From IMG/VR virus record IMGVR_UViG_3300030333_000129, positions 30,348 through 55,026 of that record: a stretch of 24,679 nucleotides of DNA; one strand, written 5' to 3'. A program made the position numbers and the translations under genes. Of this stretch, positions 2 to 15,107 are shown in pieces (the first letter of the stretch is position 1; each line of letters opens with the position of its first letter). The notes beneath the pieces were generated by a model. It was not told the DNA's origin, did not search any database, and was given only the letters and a program-made list of their open reading frames with translations. Origin of the DNA: a virus.

Positions 2-982
2 GTTGGTAAATCTGCAATAGTTAAAGAGATTGCGGAAGAACTAGCGAATGATAGAACTCTTACTGATTCAGTAAGTCCAAAAGATGATGAATTTGGTTTC
101 ATATCTTTTAGACTTGGGTTAGTAGAATCTATTGATTTGGGAGGGTTGCCTTACATTGAAGAGGGAACTCAAAAGAAAGCATTTCTAGGCAACTTGCCTA
201 GAGGTGGCGAGGGTCTATTTTTCTTGGACGAATTTGCACAAGCACATTCATCTGTCCAAGCAACGATAGGACAATTACTAGACCCAAAAGGTAAAAATGA
301 AGAGCGAAGAATTGGCGATTATGTTTTTCCTAGTGGGTGGAAAATTGTCTTAGCGGGTAATAGACATACTGATAGAAGCGGTGCGAATAAGATACTTAGG
401 CATTGTCAAGATAGAACTACTGCTATCCAGTTTACTCACGATGTGGACGACTGGTTAGAGTGGGCTGATAAGAACGACATTGACTTAAATGTTCAAGGTC
501 TTATTAGATTCATGCCACAACTATTATGGGACTTCGACCCTAAATGCAACGACCCACAGCCAAGTCCAAGAAGTTGGACAAGGTTAAGCGATACTTTGAA
601 AACGAATCCGCCTAAACGATTAATGCAAAAATTATTCGAGGGCGATGTTGGACAAGAATCAGCTATTGAATTGATGAACTTTATCTCACTTCAAAATGAT
701 GTTCCAAACATATCTGATATATGTAAGGGCAAAGATGTTGAAGTTATAGATGAAGCGGGTCTTTGCTATGCGACTACGATTGCATTAACAACTGCAATTA
801 ATGGAGCAAGTGAAAGTAATGTTTATGACTACTTTGAAAATGCTTTGAATTATTTAAAGCAACTTTCAACTGTAGAATTTTCTATATTCTTTGTTAGAAA
901 AATTACTGGACTTAGAAGCGAACTCAAAGAGTGCGATGTATATTCTAAGTTCAAGATTGATAACCAAGATTTAGAAATTTAA
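2..982 (+). CDS. MoxR/CbbQ-type AAA+ ATPase, 5' truncated by the window
   Basis: The reading frame is open from base 2, so the gene starts upstream of the window; a TTG at 137 is an internal leucine, not the start. The first visible codons read VGKS, the end of a Walker A loop. Walker B follows as LFFLDE (around bases 211-231), and AGNR near 352-363 looks like sensor 1. This order fits the AAA_5/MoxR branch. In that family the ATPase works with a VWA-domain partner to remodel or activate a target protein (RavA-ViaA, NorQ-NorD, CbbQ-CbbO). A VWA gene lies two genes downstream at 2227, in line with such a pair. The visible part has 326 codons, so only a short N-terminal piece is missing. The phage target is unknown. 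Confidence 0.88.
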   Translation, partial: VGKSAIVKEIAEELANDRTLTDSVSPKDDEFGFISFRLGLVESIDLGGLPYIEEGTQKKAFLGNLPRGGEGLFFLDEFAQAHSSVQATIGQLLDPKGKNEERRIGDYVFPSGWKIVLAGNRHTDRSGANKILRHCQDRTTAIQFTHDVDDWLEWADKNDIDLNVQGLIRFMPQLLWDFDPKCNDPQPSPRSWTRLSDTLKTNPPKRLMQKLFEGDVGQESAIELMNFISLQNDVPNISDICKGKDVEVIDEAGLCYATTIALTTAINGASESNVYDYFENALNYLKQLSTVEFSIFFVRKITGLRSELKECDVYSKFKIDNQDLEI

Positions 983-994
983 ATTTACATTACT

Positions 995-1036
995 GGGAGG
1001 GAATATTTATTATTTACTGGTAAATATTCCTTTCCC
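995..1036 (+). repeat. Long hairpin with TATTTACTGGTAAATA palindrome (copy 1)
   Basis: The stem GGGAGGGAATATTTA faces TAAATATTCCTTTCCC, with a two-base bulge. The top contains the palindrome TATTTACTGGTAAATA (1011-1026), which recurs through the window. It lies between the ATPase stop codon and hammerhead 1 and ends 13 bases before the predicted cleavage site, so it could cap the 3' end of the upstream message after cleavage. No U-run follows, so it is not a standard intrinsic terminator. Confidence 0.7.
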
Positions 1037-1040
1037 GCTC

Positions 1041-1097
1041 ATTCTGATATTGGAATGTGTATTCCAACTGACGATTCAAAAATGATGAAATCAGAAT
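1041..1097 (+). ncRNA. Type III hammerhead self-cleaving ribozyme, copy 1
   Basis: All parts of a hammerhead are present in order. Stem III 5' strand AUUCUGA (1041-1047) pairs with UCAGAAU (1091-1097). The cleavage triplet is AUA, with the cut predicted between 1049 and 1050. Stem I is UUGGAAU/AUUCCAA closed by loop GUGU (1050-1067). The core CUGACGA is at 1068-1074. Stem II is UUCA-AAAA-UGAU (1075-1086), whose first pair is U.U. The second core GAAA is at 1087-1090 and its last A pairs with U1048. Stem III is the open stem, which makes it type III. It lies in the leader of the 320-aa gene. Structure and core are seen directly; cleavage is inferred. Confidence 0.92.
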
Positions 1098-1108
1098 TTA
1101 TTAATTTT

Positions 1109-1124
1109 AATTCTTGGAGGAATT
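1109..1124 (+). promoter_or_regulatory. Shine-Dalgarno hairpin with UUGGAG loop, copy 1
   Basis: AAUUC-UUGGAG-GAAUU forms a 5-bp hairpin that ends directly before the ATG at 1125. The ribosome binding site GGAGG is split between loop and stem. The same loop with different, still complementary stems precedes the other three hammerhead-linked genes. Confidence 0.7.
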
Positions 1125-2087
1125 ATGAAAAATAATAATGTAAATACTTTATCTGAAAATGCTACTTTAGTTCGTTTCACAACGAAACATCCAAGCGGTA
1201 TTAAATCAGATAAGGATTTAAGAAAAGGTCTTGCAATAGACAAGGAAGCCAACAATGATTCACTTCATGTTGCTAAGTATATTTTTGGTAAGGAAACGAA
1301 TAAGTATTTTCGTAGAATTATCAATCAGTTTAGGTATAACTATTTTTATCCTATGACTGTCCCTTGGGATGATAACACTAGCGACTATGAGGGTAAGGTT
1401 CTTAGTGGGTGGCGACTATGCCCCAACAGAGAACTTGATAGACTCATGGATAAGGCTAACGAGTCCAAGTCTGACTTCCAAAAGGAAGTAGATTCATTTC
1501 TTGATAATTATGAAAATTTGATTGAAGCGAATAAACACAAACTGGGACAAGCATTTAAGTTGTCTGATTATCCTAATAAGGATGTAATAGCTACTAAGTT
1601 TAGATTCGATTTTGAACTTGGTACTGTTCCACAATTTAATACTAAGGATGTTCGTTTAAATGTATCTGAAAAACTTCGCAAGAAGATTGAACAAGACGCA
1701 TTAAAAAGAGCAACTAAAAATGTTGAAGCGATAACACGAACTACTGTCGATACTCTTTTGGAATCAGTAGAACATTTGGCTGACAAGCTAAAATCTTATG
1801 ACCCAAAAACAAAAGGTGGCGGATTCTTTAAGAACTCATCTTTTGATAAGTTAAGACAATTTTTAGATACTCTTCCAAGTATCAATGCTGACATTCTAGG
1901 GAATGACAAAACGATAGCGGAAGCACATCAAAATTTGGTTAGTGTCTTTGCAAAAATAAATGATGTCGATTCACTTCGTGATGATGATGATTATACTGAT
2001 AAGAAGCGAAAGCAACTTGCGGATGATTTAAAAGATTCAGTTGATGAATTGAAAGGCGGATTCTTAGACGATATGTATAAGAAGTAA
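1125..2087 (+). CDS. Conserved phage protein between MoxR ATPase and VWA genes (320 aa)
   Basis: A 320-residue soluble protein with no signal peptide or membrane segment. The centre has a pattern of aromatic and hydrophobic residues (FRFDFELGTVPQF, around residues 166-178) followed by a long charged helical region that may form a coiled coil, and the C-terminus is rich in Asp and Lys. It reminds me of the DUF3150-like proteins found between MoxR ATPases and VWA proteins in phages, but this match is from memory and moderate. The place in the cluster suggests an adaptor or substrate of the ATPase. The ATG is chosen because an SD hairpin sits directly before it. The leader carries hammerhead 1. 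Confidence 0.85.
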   Translation: MKNNNVNTLSENATLVRFTTKHPSGIKSDKDLRKGLAIDKEANNDSLHVAKYIFGKETNKYFRRIINQFRYNYFYPMTVPWDDNTSDYEGKVLSGWRLCPNRELDRLMDKANESKSDFQKEVDSFLDNYENLIEANKHKLGQAFKLSDYPNKDVIATKFRFDFELGTVPQFNTKDVRLNVSEKLRKKIEQDALKRATKNVEAITRTTVDTLLESVEHLADKLKSYDPKTKGGGFFKNSSFDKLRQFLDTLPSINADILGNDKTIAEAHQNLVSVFAKINDVDSLRDDDDYTDKKRKQLADDLKDSVDELKGGFLDDMYKK

Positions 2088-2098
2088 GCCAATGAGTT

Positions 2099-2138
2099 GC
2101 GGTGTAAAACTATTTACTAGTAAATATTTTTATATCGC
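2099..2138 (+). repeat. Long hairpin with TATTTACTAGTAAATA palindrome (copy 2)
   Basis: GCGGUGUAAAA (2099-2109) pairs with UUUUAUAUCGC with two G.U wobbles. The top is the palindrome TATTTACTAGTAAATA (2111-2126). The lower stem differs fully from copy 1 but stays complementary, and the wobbles are valid only in plus-strand RNA. It abuts hammerhead 2, and the cut site is 7 bases past its end. Confidence 0.7.
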
Positions 2139-2194
2139 TTCTGTCTTGGGATGTGTGTCCCAACTGATGATGACCCAAAAGGGTCGAAACAGAA
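2139..2194 (+). ncRNA. Type III hammerhead self-cleaving ribozyme, copy 2
   Basis: Stem III UUCUG (2139-2143) pairs with CAGAA (2190-2194). The cleavage triplet is the classic GUC (2143-2145), with the cut between 2145 and 2146. Stem I is UUGGGAU-GUGU-GUCCCAA (2146-2163). The core CUGAUGA is at 2164-2170, one extra U follows, stem II is GACCC-AAAA-GGGUC (2172-2185), and GAAA is at 2186-2189. Stems I to III differ in sequence from copy 1 while pairing is kept, which is strong support for RNA structure. It sits between the 320-aa gene and the VWA gene. Confidence 0.93.
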
Positions 2195-2206
2195 ACTCAT
2201 AAATCA

Positions 2207-2222
2207 AATTCTTGGAGGAATT
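2207..2222 (+). promoter_or_regulatory. Shine-Dalgarno hairpin with UUGGAG loop, copy 2
   Basis: AAUUC-UUGGAG-GAAUU, the same as copy 1, followed by AATT and the ATG at 2227. The TTG at 2212 is part of this element and is not a start codon. Confidence 0.68.
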
Positions 2223-2226
2223 AATT

Positions 2227-3636
2227 ATGAAAAATAGTGAAGAGCGAATGATTAAAGCGAGAGCGAAACTTATGAAAGGTAATGTTGGTATGGCAACTAT
2301 GTTATTAAAACTTACTTTGATTGAGGATAATCAGCGATGTCAAACAATGGCTACTGACGGAGTAAATATCTATTGGAATGATGAATTTGTTAAATCAATA
2401 TCAGATGATGAAATCCAAGCGGTATTAGTTCACGAAGCAAGTCATGTTATATGGGAACATCCGCTAAGAAAAGGGAAGCGAAATCACGAACTTTGGAACA
2501 TAGCTACTGACTATGTAATTAACTCTTGGATAAGATATGACTTAGGCATGGAACTTCCAAAAGACGGATTACTAGACATGAGGTATAAGGGACAAAGTGC
2601 GGAACAAGTTTATAGAACTTTATCTAACGATGAAGATTTACTAAACGAAGCTATCGAAGATTTAAAATCTAAATCTGATAATGGCGATTCTGATGATTCT
2701 GATTCTCAAAGTGGTACTGGCGATTCTGATTCTCAAAGTGGTACTGGCGATTCTGATTCTGATTCAGATACAAATTCTGATTCTGATTCTGACTCTAGTT
2801 CTGATTCTGATTCTGATTCCAACGATACTGCCAATGGAAATGGTAAAGGCAAATCTCTTGAAGAGAAACTTGCTGACTTACCAAAATCTAGTGGCGAAGT
2901 TTGGATTCCAACTAATGAAAATGGACAAGAATTATCGCCTACTGAAATGGCTGAACTACAAGAAGAACTTCAAAGAACTATCACAATGGCTGACAAGTTA
3001 GATAGTATTGGAAGTGGTTCTGTTGGTTCTCTTCGTGGTGCGGTGCAAAAACTCAATGAAACTTATGTTGACTGGGTTGATGTATTGCGAGACTTATTGC
3101 AGTCTGCTATCTCAACGAATCCTACTTGGACTAGATTGAATAGGCGACATTCTTGGCGAGGTATTAATTTACCTAGCAAAGACAAAGAGCCTAGAGGTGG
3201 CGAGATTGTAGTTGCAGTTGATACAAGTATGTCTATGACCCAAGAAGAACTTAATATCTTTGCTACTGAAACTCAATCCCTTGCGGACGAGTGCGGTATA
3301 GATAAGATTAGAGTTTGCTATTGTGATACGACTGTTATCAAAAATAGTAATGGCGAGTGGTGGGATGAATACGAACTTGATTGCGATGATTTAGAGTTCC
3401 AACTTCGTGGCGGTGGCGGAACTGATTTTGAACCGCCTTTCAATTTGTTTAATGAATATACAGATGATACAGACGATGTATTAGCCTTTATTTATTTTAC
3501 AGACGGATACGGAAGTTGTAGTGCGGAAGTTGAACCCAATGTTCCAGTAATATGGGCATTAACTGGTGGCGAAAACTATTGTACTGATGAACTGCCTTTT
3601 GGCGAGAAAGTTAGTATCGATATGTCTAGTCTTTAA
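2227..3636 (+). CDS. VWA-domain protein with N-terminal zincin-like domain (DUF2201-like, 469 aa)
   Basis: The N-terminal part has the metallopeptidase-like motif HEASH (residues 69-73) in a DUF2201_N-like context. A long acidic linker of Ser-Asp repeats (about residues 150-206) follows. The C-terminal half is a von Willebrand A domain with all MIDAS parts: DTSMS (332-336), Thr399 in GGTDF and Asp426 in FTDGYG. Proteins of this build are the usual partners of MoxR ATPases, and a MoxR-type gene lies upstream; I infer that the two act together on a target through the metal-binding site. Start: ATG 2227 after GGAGG; an in-frame TTG at 2212 lies within the SD hairpin. The leader holds hammerhead 2. 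Whether the zincin part still cuts peptides cannot be told from sequence. Confidence 0.9.
   Translation: MKNSEERMIKARAKLMKGNVGMATMLLKLTLIEDNQRCQTMATDGVNIYWNDEFVKSISDDEIQAVLVHEASHVIWEHPLRKGKRNHELWNIATDYVINSWIRYDLGMELPKDGLLDMRYKGQSAEQVYRTLSNDEDLLNEAIEDLKSKSDNGDSDDSDSQSGTGDSDSQSGTGDSDSDSDTNSDSDSDSSSDSDSDSNDTANGNGKGKSLEEKLADLPKSSGEVWIPTNENGQELSPTEMAELQEELQRTITMADKLDSIGSGSVGSLRGAVQKLNETYVDWVDVLRDLLQSAISTNPTWTRLNRRHSWRGINLPSKDKEPRGGEIVVAVDTSMSMTQEELNIFATETQSLADECGIDKIRVCYCDTTVIKNSNGEWWDEYELDCDDLEFQLRGGGGTDFEPPFNLFNEYTDDTDDVLAFIYFTDGYGSCSAEVEPNVPVIWALTGGENYCTDELPFGEKVSIDMSSL
2701..2754 (+). repeat. Tandem 27-base repeat coding an acidic Ser-Asp linker
   Basis: A 27-base unit occurs twice in a row (2701-2727 and 2728-2754). 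It is followed by many GATTCT/GATTCA hexamers to about 2820. They encode DSQSGTGDS twice and then an (SD)n run, a flexible acidic linker between the zincin and VWA domains. Such repeats change length easily by slippage. Confidence 0.85.
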
Positions 3637-3646
3637 TCACAACAAC

Positions 3647-3694
3647 ATGGTGGAGGGAAAAAGTATTTACTAGTAAATATTTTTTCTCTCGCCA
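3647..3694 (+). repeat. Long hairpin with TATTTACTAGTAAATA palindrome (copy 3)
   Basis: A stem of 24 positions with only one mismatch runs from AUGGUGGAGGGAAAAAG (3647-3663) up into the palindrome TATTTACTAGTAAATA (3664-3679) and back down to a pyrimidine-rich arm ending CGCCAU. Five of the pairs are G.U with the G on the 5' arm. The stem is therefore far better as plus-strand RNA than as minus-strand RNA. It lies between the VWA gene and hammerhead 3; the cut site is 16 bases past its end. Confidence 0.75.
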
Positions 3695-3700
3695 TCAATT

Positions 3701-3759
3701 TTTTCTGATATCAAGATGTGTATCTTGGCTGACGATTCTGAAAAGATGAAATCAGAAAA
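3701..3759 (+). ncRNA. Type III hammerhead self-cleaving ribozyme, copy 3
   Basis: Stem III UUUUCUGA (3701-3708) pairs with UCAGAAAA (3752-3759). The triplet is AUA, with the cut between 3710 and 3711. Stem I is UCAAGAU-GUGU-AUCUUGG (3711-3728), with a U.G pair at its base. The core CUGACGA is at 3729-3735. Stem II is short: UUC-UGAAAA-GAU (3736-3747), two pairs beyond a U.U. GAAA is at 3748-3751. The weak stem II makes this the copy most likely to be slow. It lies in the leader of the 277-aa gene. Confidence 0.9.
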
Positions 3760-3771
3760 TTAACTTATAAC

Positions 3772-3787
3772 TGACCTTGGAGGGTCA
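3772..3787 (+). promoter_or_regulatory. Shine-Dalgarno hairpin with UUGGAG loop, copy 3
   Basis: UGACC-UUGGAG-GGUCA. The stem is different in sequence from copies 1 and 2 (AAUUC/GAAUU) but fully paired, and the loop is the same. The ATG follows 8 bases later at 3796. Confidence 0.75.
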
Positions 3788-3795
3788 TATTTATT

Positions 3796-4629
3796 ATGGA
3801 AAATTCTAATAATAAAAATAGGTGGCTTCCAGTTTCTACTCATGTTTCAAGTGAAATTAAAACATGGTTAGAGAGATTGAAAGCTAAATACAATGTTGAC
3901 ATTTCAACACAACTTTTTCATGTAGTTACTAAGATGATTAAATCTGAAAAGCAATTAGAAAAGATAGTTGTTGCAAGTTTACTAGAGGAACATGAAAGTA
4001 AGGGTAATGCTTTACGAGATAAGGCTAGTGAACTGGGAATTGAGTACAATGTCGCTGACCAACTTGCACAAAGATTAGTGCCAGTTGTAAATGCTAATGT
4101 CGTTGATGTTTTTTCAAAACAGAAAACAAAGAAAGCAAAAGTTGGTGGTACAGAAAACATTATTAAAAAGTGTTTGAACAAAAATTCAGATGTCAAAACT
4201 GAAATGAAATCTAAGTTAGAGGAAGCAATTAGCGAATCGACAACGAAAGTTAAATCAGTTGATGATATTGATTGGCAAAGATTGGCTAATTGGAAATACA
4301 AAGACTTAGATATTCTTGGAATCTCTTTTGAGGGTGCTAAAATTCTTCAAGAAGATAATCTGAAAAGGGGATTTAAGAATGGCTTGTATGCAACTTTGCA
4401 TAGTCAAGCCTTGGGAATGTGGTCTGACCAAAAGCAAGATTTAACTATTCGAGAGATAGCTAAATTACAGCCAGTCATTAAAGACAATGGCGAGACTAGG
4501 GTTCTCACGATTCAAACTATTGTAAAAAGACTAATTAAAGCTATTGTGCATTTTGGAACTGCGGAAGAGAAAACACTATTGTTTGGAACTTCTGACATTT
4601 TTCCGCACAAGGCAAAAAAGTCTAACTAG
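3796..4629 (+). CDS. Hypothetical protein (277 aa) in the MoxR-VWA cluster
   Basis: I do not recognise a family over the full length. The N-terminus (PVSTHVSSEIKTWLERL, residues 12-28, then a helix to about 50) has the spacing of a ribbon-helix-helix or similar small DNA-binding fold, but this is weak. The middle is Lys-rich and helical; the C-terminal third (from about residue 155) looks globular, with several Trp residues. There are no cysteines in pairs, no signal peptide and no membrane segment. It is the third gene in this window with a hammerhead leader, and its ATG at 3796 follows an SD hairpin. Sharing the leader type with the ATPase-VWA genes suggests joint expression and possibly a joint role. 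Confidence 0.82.
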   Translation: MENSNNKNRWLPVSTHVSSEIKTWLERLKAKYNVDISTQLFHVVTKMIKSEKQLEKIVVASLLEEHESKGNALRDKASELGIEYNVADQLAQRLVPVVNANVVDVFSKQKTKKAKVGGTENIIKKCLNKNSDVKTEMKSKLEEAISESTTKVKSVDDIDWQRLANWKYKDLDILGISFEGAKILQEDNLKRGFKNGLYATLHSQALGMWSDQKQDLTIREIAKLQPVIKDNGETRVLTIQTIVKRLIKAIVHFGTAEEKTLLFGTSDIFPHKAKKSN

Positions 4630-4636
4630 AATAATA

Positions 4637-4650
4637 GACTAGTAAATATT
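4637..4650 (+). repeat. Degenerate copy of the TTTACTAGTAAAT palindrome (copy 4)
   Basis: GACTAGTAAATATT keeps the right half of the palindrome just after the stop codon at 4627-4629. A loose stem, TAGAA before and TTCTA after, can still form. It holds the same place as copies 1-3, between stop codon and hammerhead, but is decayed; other hairpins fill this gap. Confidence 0.5.
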
Positions 4651-4658
4651 TTTTTCTA

Positions 4659-4787
4659 CATCCTGCGATTTGGATGACTGTAAAAAAATTCTAATGCAAT
4701 TTAAGAGTAGGGTTTTTTAGGGTATCTTATGCCCTTAACCTACTCTTAACTTTGCAAGGAGCGAGTTCTCCTAGCGACAATTTTCGC
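4659..4787 (+). ncRNA. Multi-hairpin leader RNA upstream of hammerhead 4
   Basis: Four hairpins in a row. CAUCC/GGAUG lies at 4659-4676. A long stem spans 4695-4756: UGCAA with UUGCA outside, then UUAAGAGUAGG with CCUACUCUUAA (11 perfect pairs), then an inner AGGG/CCCU stem. AGGAG-CGAGUU-CUCCU follows, then GCGA-CAAUUU-UCGC (4774-4787), which touches the ribozyme. No U-run follows any of them and there is no open reading frame of note, so this is a structured RNA rather than a terminator. This gap (253 bases) is longer than the other three gaps (136-159 bases). Confidence 0.6.
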
Positions 4788-4848
4788 AAAACTGTATAGA
4801 AAATGTGTATTTTCTACTGATGATTGCCTAAAGGCATGAAACAGTTTT
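4788..4848 (+). ncRNA. Type III hammerhead self-cleaving ribozyme, copy 4
   Basis: Stem III AAAACUG (4788-4794) pairs with CAGUUUU (4842-4848). The triplet is GUA, with the cut between 4796 and 4797. Stem I is UAGAAAAU-GUGU-AUUUUCUA (8 perfect pairs, 4797-4816). The core CUGAUGA is at 4817-4823. Stem II is UUGCC-UAAA-GGCAU (4824-4837) with a U.U first pair. GAAA is at 4838-4841. It lies in the leader of the 73-aa gene. With the longest stems I and III of the four, it is a good first choice for a cleavage test. Confidence 0.93.
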
Positions 4849-4860
4849 ATTAAACTTAAC

Positions 4861-4876
4861 TGCCCTTGGAGGGGTA
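4861..4876 (+). promoter_or_regulatory. Shine-Dalgarno hairpin with UUGGAG loop, copy 4
   Basis: UGCCC-UUGGAG-GGGUA, five pairs including one G.U, with the same loop as the other copies and a third version of the stem sequence. ATG 4883 follows 7 bases later. Confidence 0.72.
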
Positions 4877-4882
4877 ATTATT

Positions 4883-5104
4883 ATGAAAATTACTTTAGAT
4901 AGAATCAAAAATATCGCAGAAGATATTATTGCAGATGATGAATGGGTAAATGATAGCCATACTAAAGCTGAACATAGCGGAATAAAGGCGGGATTATATT
5001 CTTTAATTCATCATTTAGAAGAAGTTGATACTAATTTAGACGATGACAATTTTGTTCTTACTCATAGCTTTGGAACATTAAAAGATATGGGGGGTTTAGA
5101 ATGA
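4883..5104 (+). CDS. Small hypothetical protein (73 aa)
   Basis: An acidic, helical 73-residue protein with no recognised domain. Visible features are DDEWVNDSHTKAEHSG in the middle (residues 20-35) and a hydrophobic helix GLYSLIHHLEE (residues 38-48). The ATG is set by the SD hairpin 7 bases upstream. The leader has hammerhead 4 and the multi-hairpin RNA. Its stop codon overlaps the start of the next gene (ATGA at 5101-5104), so the two are probably translated together; no ribozyme lies between them. Function unknown. Confidence 0.75.
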   Translation: MKITLDRIKNIAEDIIADDEWVNDSHTKAEHSGIKAGLYSLIHHLEEVDTNLDDDNFVLTHSFGTLKDMGGLE

Positions 5105-5385
5105 CTAATCGAGAACTATTAGAATTTACTTTGAAAGTAAACATAGGAACTTGCAACGAAATCTATACGAAGATTGATAGGCAACTAGAAGAAAAATCAG
5201 ATGTTGATTTATATTTAGTTAAATATTTTAATACTTTGGTTTCGATTAATCACAAAGTGCAAGATGTTTTATACAAAGAAAGGGCGGATATGAATTTGCC
5301 TTTTCCTAAACATCTTGGATTTACAAGTGATAATCAAATAATAGAAGTTGATGTGCAAGATATAGCGACACAAGTTGCTCTATAA
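5101..5385 (+). CDS. Small hypothetical protein (94 aa)
   Basis: A 94-residue protein, mostly helical, with no recognised family. It begins inside the stop codon of the previous gene (ATGA), which points to coupled translation; GGGGG at 5090-5094 lies just upstream and can act as a ribosome binding site. It is the last gene of the left plus-strand block: the stop at 5383-5385 is followed within 8 bases by a strong intrinsic terminator. Function unknown. Confidence 0.75.
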   Translation: MTNRELLEFTLKVNIGTCNEIYTKIDRQLEEKSDVDLYLVKYFNTLVSINHKVQDVLYKERADMNLPFPKHLGFTSDNQIIEVDVQDIATQVAL

Positions 5386-5392
5386 ATAAATT

Positions 5393-5438
5393 AAGGCGGT
5401 ATGCTACTTTAAAAGGTGGTGTACCGCCTTTTTTTTTG
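5393..5438 (+). terminator. Rho-independent terminator of the left gene block
   Basis: AAGGCGGTA (5393-5401) pairs perfectly with TACCGCCTT (5422-5430), with a smaller inner ACTTT/AAGGT stem, and the T-run reaches 5438. It follows the stop codon at 5385 and closes the plus-strand cluster that starts before the window. Confidence 0.93.
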
Positions 5439-5486
5439 GTCTAAAAAAAGAGGATATGGAAATTTGTGGAGGGGTGAATAATAAAA

Positions 5487-5572
5487 TATTTACTAGTATA
5501 TTGTTTATCCTGAGATATTCTGATAGCAATTACTAGCGTGTTCGAGCCTAGCACATAAAATATATTTACTGG
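5487..5572 (+). repeat. Two partial copies of the TTTACTRGTAAAT palindrome (copies 5 and 6)
   Basis: TATTTACTAGTATA lies at 5487-5500 and the half copy TATTTACTGG at 5563-5572. Around the first, GGAGGGGTGAATAATAAAAT can pair loosely with ATTGTTTATCCT, recalling the hairpins at 995, 2099 and 3647. ATTCTGATA at 5516-5524 matches the stem III plus triplet of hammerhead 1, but no ribozyme core follows. Confidence 0.5.
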
Positions 5573-5696
5573 TTTTCAGGCTGTGGATAAGTCTGTGGAA
5601 AAGTTGTAGATAAGTCTTGCAATTTGCTATCAAATACATTATATTAATGTTATTGAATTGCATAAGTTTTTCTTTATTTCTCAATGCAACTTTCAT
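5505..5696 (-). CDS. Doubtful small ORF (63 aa) in the candidate origin region
   Basis: This minus-strand ORF has CTTGGAGG nine bases before its ATG, the same ribosome binding sequence used by the hammerhead-linked genes, and a hairpin (5717-5740) just ahead of that. The protein (MKVALRNKEKLMQF...) is basic, has four cysteines and resembles nothing I know. The DnaA-like boxes and an AT-rich stretch lie inside it, and its make-up may simply reflect non-coding DNA. I list it only because of its ribosome binding site. Confidence 0.3.
   Translation of the reverse strand: MKVALRNKEKLMQFNNINIMYLIANCKTYLQLFHRLIHSLKTSKYILCARLEHASNCYQNISG
5582..5613 (+). other. Cluster of three DnaA-box-like 9-mers
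   Basis: TGTGGATAA (5582-5590) is an exact DnaA box on the reverse strand (TTATCCACA). TGTGGAAAA (5594-5602) and TGTAGATAA (5605-5613) are one-base variants. The starts are 12 and 11 bases apart, all in one orientation and close to helical phase. The next 80 bases are very AT-rich, as an unwinding element would be. Candidate origin of replication or host DnaA binding site. Confidence 0.55.
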
Positions 5697-5716
5697 ATGT
5701 TGAAACCTCCAAGGTA

Positions 5717-5748
5717 GGGGATAGTCGCAAGATTATCCCCTTTTTTTT
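5717..5748 (+). terminator. Second Rho-independent terminator
   Basis: GGGGATA (5717-5723) pairs with TATCCCC (5734-5740), followed by eight T. It reads on the plus strand. No plus-strand gene lies between this and the terminator at 5393, so it either catches read-through or ends a short RNA from the 5440-5740 stretch. On the minus strand the same hairpin precedes the ribosome binding site of the doubtful ORF at 5505-5696. Confidence 0.85.
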
Positions 5749-5758
5749 GGTAGTCATT

Positions 5759-5794
5759 TGATAGTCTATGATAGTTGACACACCATATGATAGT
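5759..5794 (+). repeat. Three TGATAGT iteron-like repeats
   Basis: TGATAGT starts at 5759, 5769 and 5788; the last two are extended as TATGATAGTT. Spacing of 10 and 19 bases puts them on about the same face of the helix. They lie about 150 bases from the DnaA-like boxes and ahead of the promoter at 5974. They may bind an initiator or repressor. Confidence 0.45.
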
Positions 5795-5825
5795 TAACAG
5801 ACCACCTAGTTCTCCGACTAAAAAA

Positions 5826-5839
5826 TTTACTGGTAAATA
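5826..5839 (+). repeat. TTTACTGGTAAAT palindrome (copy 7)
   Basis: ATTTACTGGTAAAT, followed by ATTATTTTTCTGGGA. The trailing T-rich run and CTGGGA also follow the copies at 6751 and (reverse strand) 15088, which suggests a longer repeat unit of about 30 bases. Confidence 0.65.
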
Positions 5840-5890
5840 TTATTTTTCTGGGATGGCAGGATGATGAGAAGCACAAGCCGTTGCAAAACA

Positions 5891-5907
5891 ATATACTGGT
5901 AAATATT
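5891..5907 (+). repeat. TTTACTGGTAAAT palindrome (copy 8)
   Basis: ATATACTGGTAAATATT, followed by a T-run and CCAG. It is 65 bases from copy 7, in the non-coding stretch ahead of the early promoter. Confidence 0.6.
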
Positions 5908-5949
5908 TTTTTTTCCAGATGCGTCAGTCATCTCTACGCTGTGTGTAAA

Positions 5950-5965
5950 TGTTCCACATGGAACA
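5950..5965 (+). other. parS-like palindrome
   Basis: TGTTCCACATGGAACA differs from a perfect 16-base palindrome TGTTCCACGTGGAACA by one central base. Established: bacterial ParB proteins bind parS sites of the form TGTTNCACGTGNAACA. It lies 8 bases before the -35 of the promoter at 5974, so it could instead be an operator. No ParA or ParB gene is in the window. If it is parS, the host's ParB or a phage ParB outside the window would be the binder. Confidence 0.5.
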
Positions 5966-5973
5966 ATGGGTAT

Positions 5974-6002
5974 TTCACTTTGATAGCATTTTGCAGTATA
6001 AT
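5974..6002 (+). promoter_or_regulatory. Sigma70-type promoter for the 6011-6563 genes
   Basis: TTCACT (5974-5979), a 17-base spacer, then a perfect TATAAT (5997-6002). The transcript should start near 6009, only about two bases before the ATG at 6011, so the message is probably leaderless. A palindrome at 5950-5965 just upstream could control it. Confidence 0.65.
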
Positions 6003-6010
6003 AATGGCTT

Positions 6011-6325
6011 ATGTATGCGGTAATAAGACACACATATCACTTAGATATACCAGAGCCAAGTAATGCTTATTCAACTAAGTCTAGTGCTAAATGGAAACAT
6101 TTTGTATGGATATTTGAAACTGAACTAAATGCTCTTGCTTTTGCCATATCTCTTTTAGATGACCCTTTGATTATGTCTAACGAATGGTTAGTCGAAAGTG
6201 CCATAAAACAATTAGAAGAAGATAGGTATTATCAAGTTGGTAAAGAAAGTGTTGCTATTGCAGAAGTGCAAGAAAGTCCGCAGATAATTTATAAGGATGA
6301 TAAAAATGAAAAGTCTATTCATTAG
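6011..6325 (+). CDS. Hypothetical protein (104 aa), probably leaderless
   Basis: A 104-residue soluble protein with no recognised domain; the middle reads WKHFVWIFETELNALAFA (residues 28-45) and the C-terminus is acidic. There is no ribosome binding site before ATG 6011. The TATAAT box ends 8 bases upstream, so translation likely starts on a leaderless message. An alternative ATG at 6004 is in another frame and gives only a short product. The gene overlaps the next one (6306) by 20 bases. It is the first gene after the candidate origin region, a common place for early phage functions. Function unknown. Confidence 0.65.
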   Translation: MYAVIRHTYHLDIPEPSNAYSTKSSAKWKHFVWIFETELNALAFAISLLDDPLIMSNEWLVESAIKQLEEDRYYQVGKESVAIAEVQESPQIIYKDDKNEKSIH

Positions 6326-6563: not shown

Positions 6564-7056
6564 TATACCAAAAAGTTAGTAGTGCATTAGAACATTCTTG
6601 CATTACTAACTCCTTTGTTTCGCATATTTCTTTAGGATTATCTATCATAATCTTCCAAAAAACTTTTTCTTTGTTGTGTCCACAATCATTTACTAACTTT
6701 TTCTGTATTCTTGAAAGCATGACAGCTCTTGGCGGAGCTTGATTAAAACTATTACTGGTAAATATTTCTTTTCCCAGCCCAAAGGATTTTCCCAAAGCTC
6801 CACTTTTTGCTATCAATTCAAGATATTTATTACATACATTGTGCTGTTCTGCTGTAATTTTTTGTTGTAGGAAAGATTTATCGATGATATGTTGGTCGAA
6901 CACGATTGCTCTACCAACCTTGCTTTTACCTATTTTAGTTATTGCAACTTGGTTTCTGAAATGTAGATAGGGACTTCCAATGTCATTAACTTGTAATGTT
7001 TCAGAACTCCCAGTCAAAGTTATCTTCAACTTCTTCAATCTCTGCATATCTCCCAT
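6508..7056 (-). CDS. Hypothetical protein (182 aa) downstream of the primase-helicase
   Basis: No firm family. The central part (FDQHIIDKSFLQQKITAEQHNVCNKYLEL) recalls the xGxITxEQHxAGxxYxxL pattern of alphaproteobacterial DUF6456-like and related phage proteins; this is a weak match from memory. The C-terminal half has two Cys and looks helical. The frame overlaps the helicase end by 56 bases, which is long; the true start may be a non-ATG codon nearer 7020, just after GGGAG. The dispersed palindrome (6751-6763) lies inside the gene in frame and encodes KEIFTSN. Its 3' end runs into the convergent gene 6306-6563. Confidence 0.65.
   Translation of the reverse strand: MGDMQRLKKLKITLTGSSETLQVNDIGSPYLHFRNQVAITKIGKSKVGRAIVFDQHIIDKSFLQQKITAEQHNVCNKYLELIAKSGALGKSFGLGKEIFTSNSFNQAPPRAVMLSRIQKKLVNDCGHNKEKVFWKIMIDNPKEICETKELVMQECSNALLTFWYISQKNPVSLFQQSLVNQV
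6751..6763 (+). repeat. TTACTGGTAAAT palindrome inside a coding gene (copy 9)
   Basis: ATTACTGGTAAAT, followed on the plus strand by ATTTCTTTTCCCAG. It lies within the 182-aa minus-strand gene without breaking the frame. The same repeat with the same T-rich and CCAG flank occurs at 15088 on the other strand, also in frame. Confidence 0.65.
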
Positions 7057-14707: not shown

Positions 14708-15107
14708 CTTGCCCTTAGAGGTTTACTACACAAAGAATAAGAAGTTTATCCTTAACTTAAACAACTATCGTAATGCTCATTACAGAACACTATCAAATGC
14801 CAAGAAGATTTATGCAGACAATTTAGTTGATAGGATTAGTTATCCTAAATACGAAGAGCCTGTTGTATTAACTTATACCTATTATGCAAAGAGTAAAAGG
14901 AGATTGGATGTGAGTAATCCTTGTTCTATTATTGATAAGTTTACTTGCGACGCTTTAGTTAAAGCAGGTGTGTTAGAGGATGATAGTAGCAAACAAATTA
15001 AACAAGTCATTTACAAATATGGGGGGATTGATAAAGACAATCCTAGATGTGAGCTTGAAATCGCAGCGTCCCAGCAGCAAAAGAAATATTTACCAGTAAA
15101 TGATTAA
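14697..15107 (+). CDS. RusA-like Holliday junction resolvase (136 aa)
   Basis: The pattern LNNYRNAHYR at the N-terminus, YYAKSKRRLDVSNPCSIIDKF (around residues 62-82) and CDALVKAGVLEDDSS (about 84-98) is that of the RusA family, whose conserved Asp residues (the DxxN and DD motifs) bind metal and cut four-way junctions. It completes the recombination set with the nuclease, the annealing protein and Ref. The last dozen residues (QQQKKYLPVND) are encoded by a copy of the dispersed palindrome (15088-15101), so the natural C-terminus has been changed or extended by the repeat. Confidence 0.85.
   Translation: MKIDLPLEVYYTKNKKFILNLNNYRNAHYRTLSNAKKIYADNLVDRISYPKYEEPVVLTYTYYAKSKRRLDVSNPCSIIDKFTCDALVKAGVLEDDSSKQIKQVIYKYGGIDKDNPRCELEIAASQQQKKYLPVND
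15088..15101 (+). repeat. TTTACCAGTAAAT palindrome at the 3' end of the RusA-like gene (copy 10)
   Basis: ATTTACCAGTAAAT in the opposite orientation to the other copies, with CCCAGCAGCAAAAGAAAT before it and ATTAATCCCAGGGA after it. TCCC (15069-15072) and GGGA (15113-15116) could close a larger stem. It is in frame with the resolvase. Confidence 0.68.

Follow-up and report, generated by a model that had tools for sequence, protein, structure and literature searches.

Introduction

Ribonuclease III (RNase III) cuts the polycistronic early messenger RNA (mRNA) of phage T7 at gene boundaries, giving messages with terminal hairpins. In prophages, hammerhead ribozymes flank single genes or short blocks of genes, and processing into single-gene or operon-length mRNAs has been proposed for them; three tandem arrangements cleave in vitro, and one of these also cleaves in E. 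coli (Perreault et al. 2011, PMC3088659). For HHphage, a hammerhead variant of haloviruses HF1/HF2, a 5′ end was mapped within three nucleotides of the cut site (PMC3088659), and the role of hammerheads in bacteria and phages has been described as an open question (2017 review, PMC6155905). Here we analyze a window of 24,679 nucleotides (nt), positions 30348-55026 of the 58,579-base virus contig IMGVR_UViG_3300030333_000129. The first 5.4 kb of the window form an operon with a predicted type III hammerhead in each gene gap. The operon encodes, in order, a MoxR-like ATPase, a DUF3150 protein, a VWA/DUF2201 metallopeptidase-like protein and a 277-amino-acid protein, followed by two small overlapping genes.

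A preliminary description of the window, made from its letters, knew of no serial array of hammerheads between consecutive protein genes. This claim to novelty falls, because hammerhead clusters with a proposed role in mRNA processing, and their cleavage, had already been reported (Perreault et al. 2011; PMC3088659). The present locus resembles those prophage clusters in that several hammerheads of mixed type flank consecutive genes in one orientation and the same role is proposed, the cleavage of tandem sets having been shown in the earlier work. It differs in that the flanked genes are not constant there and the named sets are tandem or triple, whereas here one orthologous operon keeps its sites across 42 contigs, with an exchange of ribozyme types and with paired hairpins. 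HHphage also lies shortly 5′ of a phage gene start, but it is a single copy with a variant core, found in an archaeal virus before the first gene only. Processing of the T7 early mRNA needs a host protein, whereas the RNA considered here would cut itself, leaving a 5′-OH and a cyclic phosphate. We found no paper on the ribozymes of these phages in the open-access literature searched. What is new is the depth of orthologous conservation at the gaps, the exchange of types, the composite boundary unit and the longer arrays in unrelated contigs. An operon that keeps a ribozyme in every gap across dozens of phages is a clear system to test; if the proposal is true, it would represent natural protein-free mRNA processing, with modules useful for insulated multi-gene transcripts.

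Four hammerheads in the gene gaps of the operon

We searched the window with a descriptor consisting of an NUH triplet, a stem I of at least 4 pairs, CUGANGA, a stem II of at least 3 pairs, GAAA and a stem III of at least 3 pairs. Exactly four sites were found, one per real gene gap and all on the coding (+) strand (Table 1), compared to 0.04 loci per window, with a maximum of 1, in 200 dinucleotide-preserving shuffles. These are the four complete type III hammerheads of the preliminary description, whose coordinates proved correct to within one base and whose cut sites coincide with those predicted by the descriptor. All four copies possess the hammerhead core (C3 U4 G5 A6 N7 G8 A9, G12 A13 A14 and A15.1-U16.1, thus the CUGANGA and GAAA already noted), the type III topology, in which stems I and II are closed by loops and stem III is open, an NUH cleavage triplet (AUA, GUC, AUA and GUA, as first read) and the GUGU loop on stem I. 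The statement that one ribozyme stands before each gene is correct for four genes. The copy preceding the MoxR gene, which is of type I, is located outside the window on its upstream side, and the operon's last gene, which overlaps its neighbor, has none.

The base of stem II departs from the consensus. In copies 1, 3 and 4, stem II starts with a U10.1-U11.1 mismatch; in copy 2, an extra unpaired U precedes a G-C pair. The G10.1-C11.1 consensus, which is strong and lies outside the fixed core, is represented by G-C in 8 of 41 rows of the alignment described below and replaced by a mismatch in 33. Since U10.1-U11.1 occurs in natural hammerheads, where it is the best tolerated mismatch at this position (Perreault et al. 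2011, PMC3088659), we regard it as a variant feature and not as a loss of the core. Folding of the entire gap with RNAfold gave the three-stem structure for copies 2-4. The search with Rfam covariance models that had been suggested as a check gave a divided result: a scan of the window against Rfam 15 returned no hammerhead match, even at E ≤ 10, whereas Hammerhead_3 (RF00008) matched sites in related contigs with 33-41 bits (E 2e-9 to 5e-7). The gathering score of 48.5 bits was not reached, the best value being 41.4 in the relatives, with none in the window. Because RF00008 does match sites in related contigs, we judge the miss in the window to be a limit of the models. The type III topology and the full conserved core are common to RF00008 and the present sites, which differ from it by their sub-gathering scores, by the missed window copies and by the U-U mismatch or bulged U with which stem II begins in the window. 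On this sequence evidence, it is nearly certain that the sites are real hammerheads.

To describe the pairing, we made a gap-free alignment of 41 different type III sequences, all of the same length and drawn from the window and its relatives. The 19-pair structure was paired in 90.5% of cells, compared to 68.2% after shuffling of partners and 31-46% when slid by 1-3 columns. The earlier remark that the stems vary yet stay paired is borne out by changes on both sides in 14 of the 19 pairs (score 0.684 vs 0.239), five of them in stem III, six in stem I and three in stem II, with 87.5%, 100% and 79.9% of cells paired in the respective stems. In contrast to the stems, loop I (UGUGUA) and loop II (NAAA) hardly vary, which is compatible with a possible tertiary contact between the two loops. 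Among 89 distinct sites, N7, the sole free position of the core, is T in 66, A in 11, C in 9 and G in 3, and H17 is A in 55, C in 33 and T in 1; the descriptor bars G at H17, yet no gap was empty for that reason.

Conservation in related phages

A search with the VWA protein yielded 42 viral loci with 46-99% identity, and the carriers of the operon array are a group of aquatic phages. A model (R1) built from the 41 aligned sequences, which its seed sequences therefore match by construction, found 125 sites in 446 kb of the relatives, all of them in the orientation of the cluster genes, and 1-5 sites in each of 15 whole contigs. For a tally of the gaps in the window and the 42 related contigs, gene ends were set by tblastn and each gap was then inspected. 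The MoxR-DUF3150 gap was occupied in 43 of 43 cases, by type III in 38 and type I in 5. Between DUF3150 and VWA, 38 gaps were occupied (32 type III, 6 type I), one contained a broken core and four contigs had no gap (L035-L038), because the two genes overlap there. All 39 readable gaps between VWA and the next gene were occupied, so that an intact core was present in 120 of the 121 readable gene gaps. Broken cores in phages that keep the genes, named by the preliminary description as the pattern that would speak against it, are confined to the remaining gap, in which the core reads CUGACGU (A9U; L019:3421-3478) and the stems are kept; this is either a sequencing error or a recent loss.

The descriptor found no hammerhead in the MoxR/VWA regions of Schitoviridae (L055, L056), where the genes overlap, or in those of Acinetobacter phage At2 and cyanophage S-TIM66 (L054, L057). 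Pelagiphages HTVC027P and HTVC023P are among the isolate relatives by terminase; in these and in two other structural relatives, no credible R1 site was found (best E 0.34; about 50 kb each).

Exchange of ribozyme types and the slot before MoxR

One gene boundary carries a type III hammerhead in some phages and a circularly permuted type I hammerhead in others, and it is therefore the cut that has been kept rather than the sequence. This swap of topology, combined with the presence of a ribozyme in every gap, suggests that the cut itself is under selection. As a search with RF00163 did not recognize the type I hammerheads of these phages, their assignment is based on alignment, pairing and position. 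A double type I match at both ends of contig G003 was interpreted as a single copy within a terminal repeat.

The slot before MoxR is held by type I in 29 contigs, to which L032, reading as type I, can be added, and by a third, uncertain form in 6. In the genome of the window, this copy is an 84-base type I hammerhead (G000:C1:30117-30200, equal to L001:1318-1401). Its stem III, like those of the copies in L006, L008, L026, L033 and L045, contains a conserved inserted domain (UUAAACCAGUA...CUGACCC...GGG), which could bind a ligand or a protein. We did not class the third form (4-base-pair stem I, AATTAA loop, AA before GAAAC) as a hammerhead, because its stem III has just 2-4 pairs and the inserted AA disrupts the spacing of the core.

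Separately, a partly conserved non-coding leader of about 400 nt with alternative middle parts was observed at L001:480-870 and at the corresponding place in about 13 relatives. It ends in a hammerhead-like motif (GTC, a 4-base-pair stem with an AATTAA loop, CUGANGA, a stem, AA and GAAAC), and the leaders of L001, L021, L023 and L039 had no Rfam match at E ≤ 0.5.

Hairpins on both sides of the ribozymes

A hairpin on the palindrome TTTACTRGTAAA precedes the type III sites, with its center 26-42 nt 5′ of the cut; slot 4 is an exception, in which a different structured RNA lies 5′ of the ribozyme. The RNA 5′ of the site is more stable for type III (median z −1.98) than for type I (−0.68; deduplicated, Mann-Whitney p 7e-6), in a comparison that pools pattern-scan matches and may include some false sites. 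A stop triplet lies within the last 9 nt for 73% of type I sites versus 24% of type III sites. In one reading, type III would need the hairpin because its cut would leave an unprotected 3′ end, while after a type I cut stems II and III would remain there. On the other side, the Shine-Dalgarno sequence lies in a UUGGAG hexaloop on a covarying stem, with at least 4 pairs in 43 of the 48 distinct contexts after sites of type III form. Comparable hairpins are also present at further ribosome-binding sites of the loci, many of them before MoxR and other cluster genes, in a set that pools any that follow type I sites.

These features suggest a wider proposal, to which we give somewhat less than an even chance: that each gap is a standard unit of 3′ hairpin, ribozyme, Shine-Dalgarno hairpin and gene, whose topology can be swapped but whose cut is kept, so that self-cleavage would be a regular route to single-gene messages, possibly gated by translation of the upstream gene, and that the same principle operates in unrelated phages whose arrays number ten or more ribozymes.

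The palindrome was also seen without a ribozyme, in the form TTTACTRGTAAATA, at 5487-5502, 5826-5839, 5892-5905, 6751-6764 and 15087-15102 of the window and at about position 450 of L001. In the MoxR gap of the window's own genome it forms an extra hairpin between TTAAA repeats, as if inserted; relatives such as L045 are without it.

Proposed processing of the operon RNA

Strong terminators occur only past the last gene of the operon (5393-5430 and 5716-5741), and a scan of positions 900-6100 for σ70-like promoters found 21 compared to 20.8 expected, which is the level of chance. This pattern is consistent with a single transcript but is not proof of one. We propose that the hammerheads in the gaps would cut the nascent polycistronic RNA just 5′ of the ribosome-binding site of each gene. 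The downstream message would start with a 5′-OH, at type III sites within the stem I hairpin, and the upstream message would end in a 2′,3′-cyclic phosphate, either shortly past the hairpin (type III) or bearing stems II and III (type I); the outcome would be single-gene messages, obtained with no need for a host nuclease. Self-cleavage and the chemistry of the ends are what the hammerhead family would predict, and we infer co-transcription and a benefit in the form of separate stability and translation for each gene. Orthologous conservation, covariation, the type swap, the lack of a promoter excess and the terminator placed only after the last gene make self-cutting the best-supported mechanism, as judged from the sequences. 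The processing role put forward in the preliminary description stands to that extent, and we consider it likely that the ribozymes cut the operon RNA into single-gene messages. Cutting may in turn decouple the stability and dosage of the genes, as that description suggested.

Several points weigh against this proposal. Copies 1, 3 and 4 may be slowed by the U-U mismatch with which their stem II begins, and the minimum-energy fold of the full gap around copy 1 differs from the ribozyme fold and competes with it, the correct structure being obtained only when the copy is folded alone. Most descriptors hold the core fixed by design, and the tally of gaps is less subject to this bias; its 121 gaps are not independent events, because most of the relatives are homologous. 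The pooling of pattern-scan matches tempers the stability comparison. Finally, since the σ70 scan is blind to promoters of phage polymerases, the palindrome could be a promoter.

The ribozymes could also be conditional switches, with cutting dependent on upstream translation, a ligand or a protein and the gaps serving as regulated break points. Many type I copies start immediately after the upstream stop codon, so that a ribosome terminating there would sit over stem I and some of the core, some copies in the MoxR slot hold the stem III insert, and the Shine-Dalgarno sites lie within covarying hairpins; this gives the idea some plausibility. It nevertheless appears rather doubtful, as the type III copies sit beyond a hairpin and distant from the stop codon, other phages have a simple stem III with no insert at the same place, and no regulator or ligand is known.

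If each gap instead had its own promoter or operator at the palindrome, the ribozyme would merely trim the 5′ end of a separately started message. The palindrome occurs far more often than expected (16 matches vs 1.9), stands before most type III sites and is found away from ribozymes as well. However, type I gaps are mostly without it, in L021 and L022 it lies inside stem III of the type I copy between DUF3150 and VWA, and hence downstream of the core, and other array phages have unrelated hairpins in that place (L124, judged by eye), all of which makes separate starts unlikely. A view of the hammerheads as selfish or neutral RNA elements that have invaded the gaps without serving the phage, as their abundance in mobile elements and the inconstant genes of the prophage clusters (PMC3088659) might suggest, is very improbable here: the flanked genes do not vary, the core is intact in 120 of 121 gaps and is accompanied by compensatory changes in the stems, and one topology takes the place of another at a given boundary.

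Features of the window

The features of the operon region are collected in Table 1. Past the cluster, two loci of a divergent clade (L035:6250-6361 and L036:6308-6419) showed a weak match to the transfer-messenger RNA family RF00023, at 14-17 bits and far below its cut-off.

Table 1. Genes, predicted ribozymes and flanking RNA structures of the operon (window coordinates).
Feature	Position	Strand	Support
MoxR-like AAA ATPase gene, 5′ part beyond window edge	2-982	+	phrog_1297 ATPase, E 5.5e-55
Hairpin around palindrome TTTACTGGTAAATA, 5′ of ribozyme 1	995-1035	+	gap fold; palindrome; same element in relatives before type III
Type III hammerhead 1, predicted cut 1049/1050 (AUA)	1040-1097	+	descriptor; R1 79.8 bits, E 5e-17; in R1 seed
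Shine-Dalgarno hairpin AATTC-TTGGAG-GAATT	1109-1124	+	
DUF3150 protein gene	1125-2087	+	PF11348, E 2.7e-6
Hairpin around palindrome TTTACTAGTAAATA, 5′ of ribozyme 2	2099-2138	+	palindrome; gap fold
Type III hammerhead 2, predicted cut 2145/2146 (GUC)	2138-2194	+	descriptor; R1 58.9 bits, E 1e-11; outside R1 seed
Shine-Dalgarno hairpin AATTC-TTGGAG-GAATT	2207-2222	+	
VWA/metallopeptidase (DUF2201) gene	2227-3636	+	PF13203, E 1e-32; PF09967, E 6e-16
Hairpin around palindrome TTTACTAGTAAATA, 5′ of ribozyme 3	3647-3695	+	palindrome; gap fold
Type III hammerhead 3, predicted cut 3710/3711 (AUA)	3700-3759	+	descriptor; R1 77.8 bits, E 2e-16
Shine-Dalgarno hairpin TGACC-TTGGAG-GGTCA	3772-3787	+	
277-amino-acid protein gene, without family match	3796-4629	+	
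Structured RNA, stem partly conserved, 5′ of ribozyme 4	4695-4756	+	
Type III hammerhead 4, predicted cut 4796/4797 (GUA), 8-pair stem I	4787-4848	+	descriptor; R1 48.6 bits, E 6e-9; outside R1 seed
Shine-Dalgarno hairpin TGCCC-TTGGAG-GGGTA	4861-4876	+	
Pair of small overlapping genes (4883-5104, 5101-5385), no intervening ribozyme	4883-5385	+	
Strong intrinsic terminator after last gene of operon	5393-5430	+	17 pairs, T run

Hammerheads in unrelated viral contigs and in Patescibacteria

A pattern scan of viral contigs found the type III signature in at least 119 stretches and, among the matches listed, the type I signature in 98. The descriptor matched in 142 of 192 loci, 53 of which had no cluster genes in the stretch examined (again among the matches listed). 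At least 12 hammerheads, many of them 5′ of a small gene, were seen in the 39.8-kb contig G025 (L102), which has unrelated genes in the stretch read; 11 are type I matches to RF00163, two of them above the Rfam cut-off, and one is a clear type III. A BLAST search of the arrays L102 and L124 against isolated phages gave no match.

Type III hammerheads with the same UGUGUA and NAAA loops were also frequent in Patescibacteria (candidate phyla radiation, CPR), which make up most of the signature matches listed (L250-L357, GTDB contigs; for example L257:2473-6528, L354, L295 and L346). We found no paper in the open-access literature searched that combines hammerhead, ribozyme and Patescibacteria. 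At E ≤ 0.001, RF00008 matched in 8 of 9 such genomes, with up to 13 matches in one, versus 0 of 14 control genomes, and in L257 the descriptor matched 10 times within 4 kb on a single strand.

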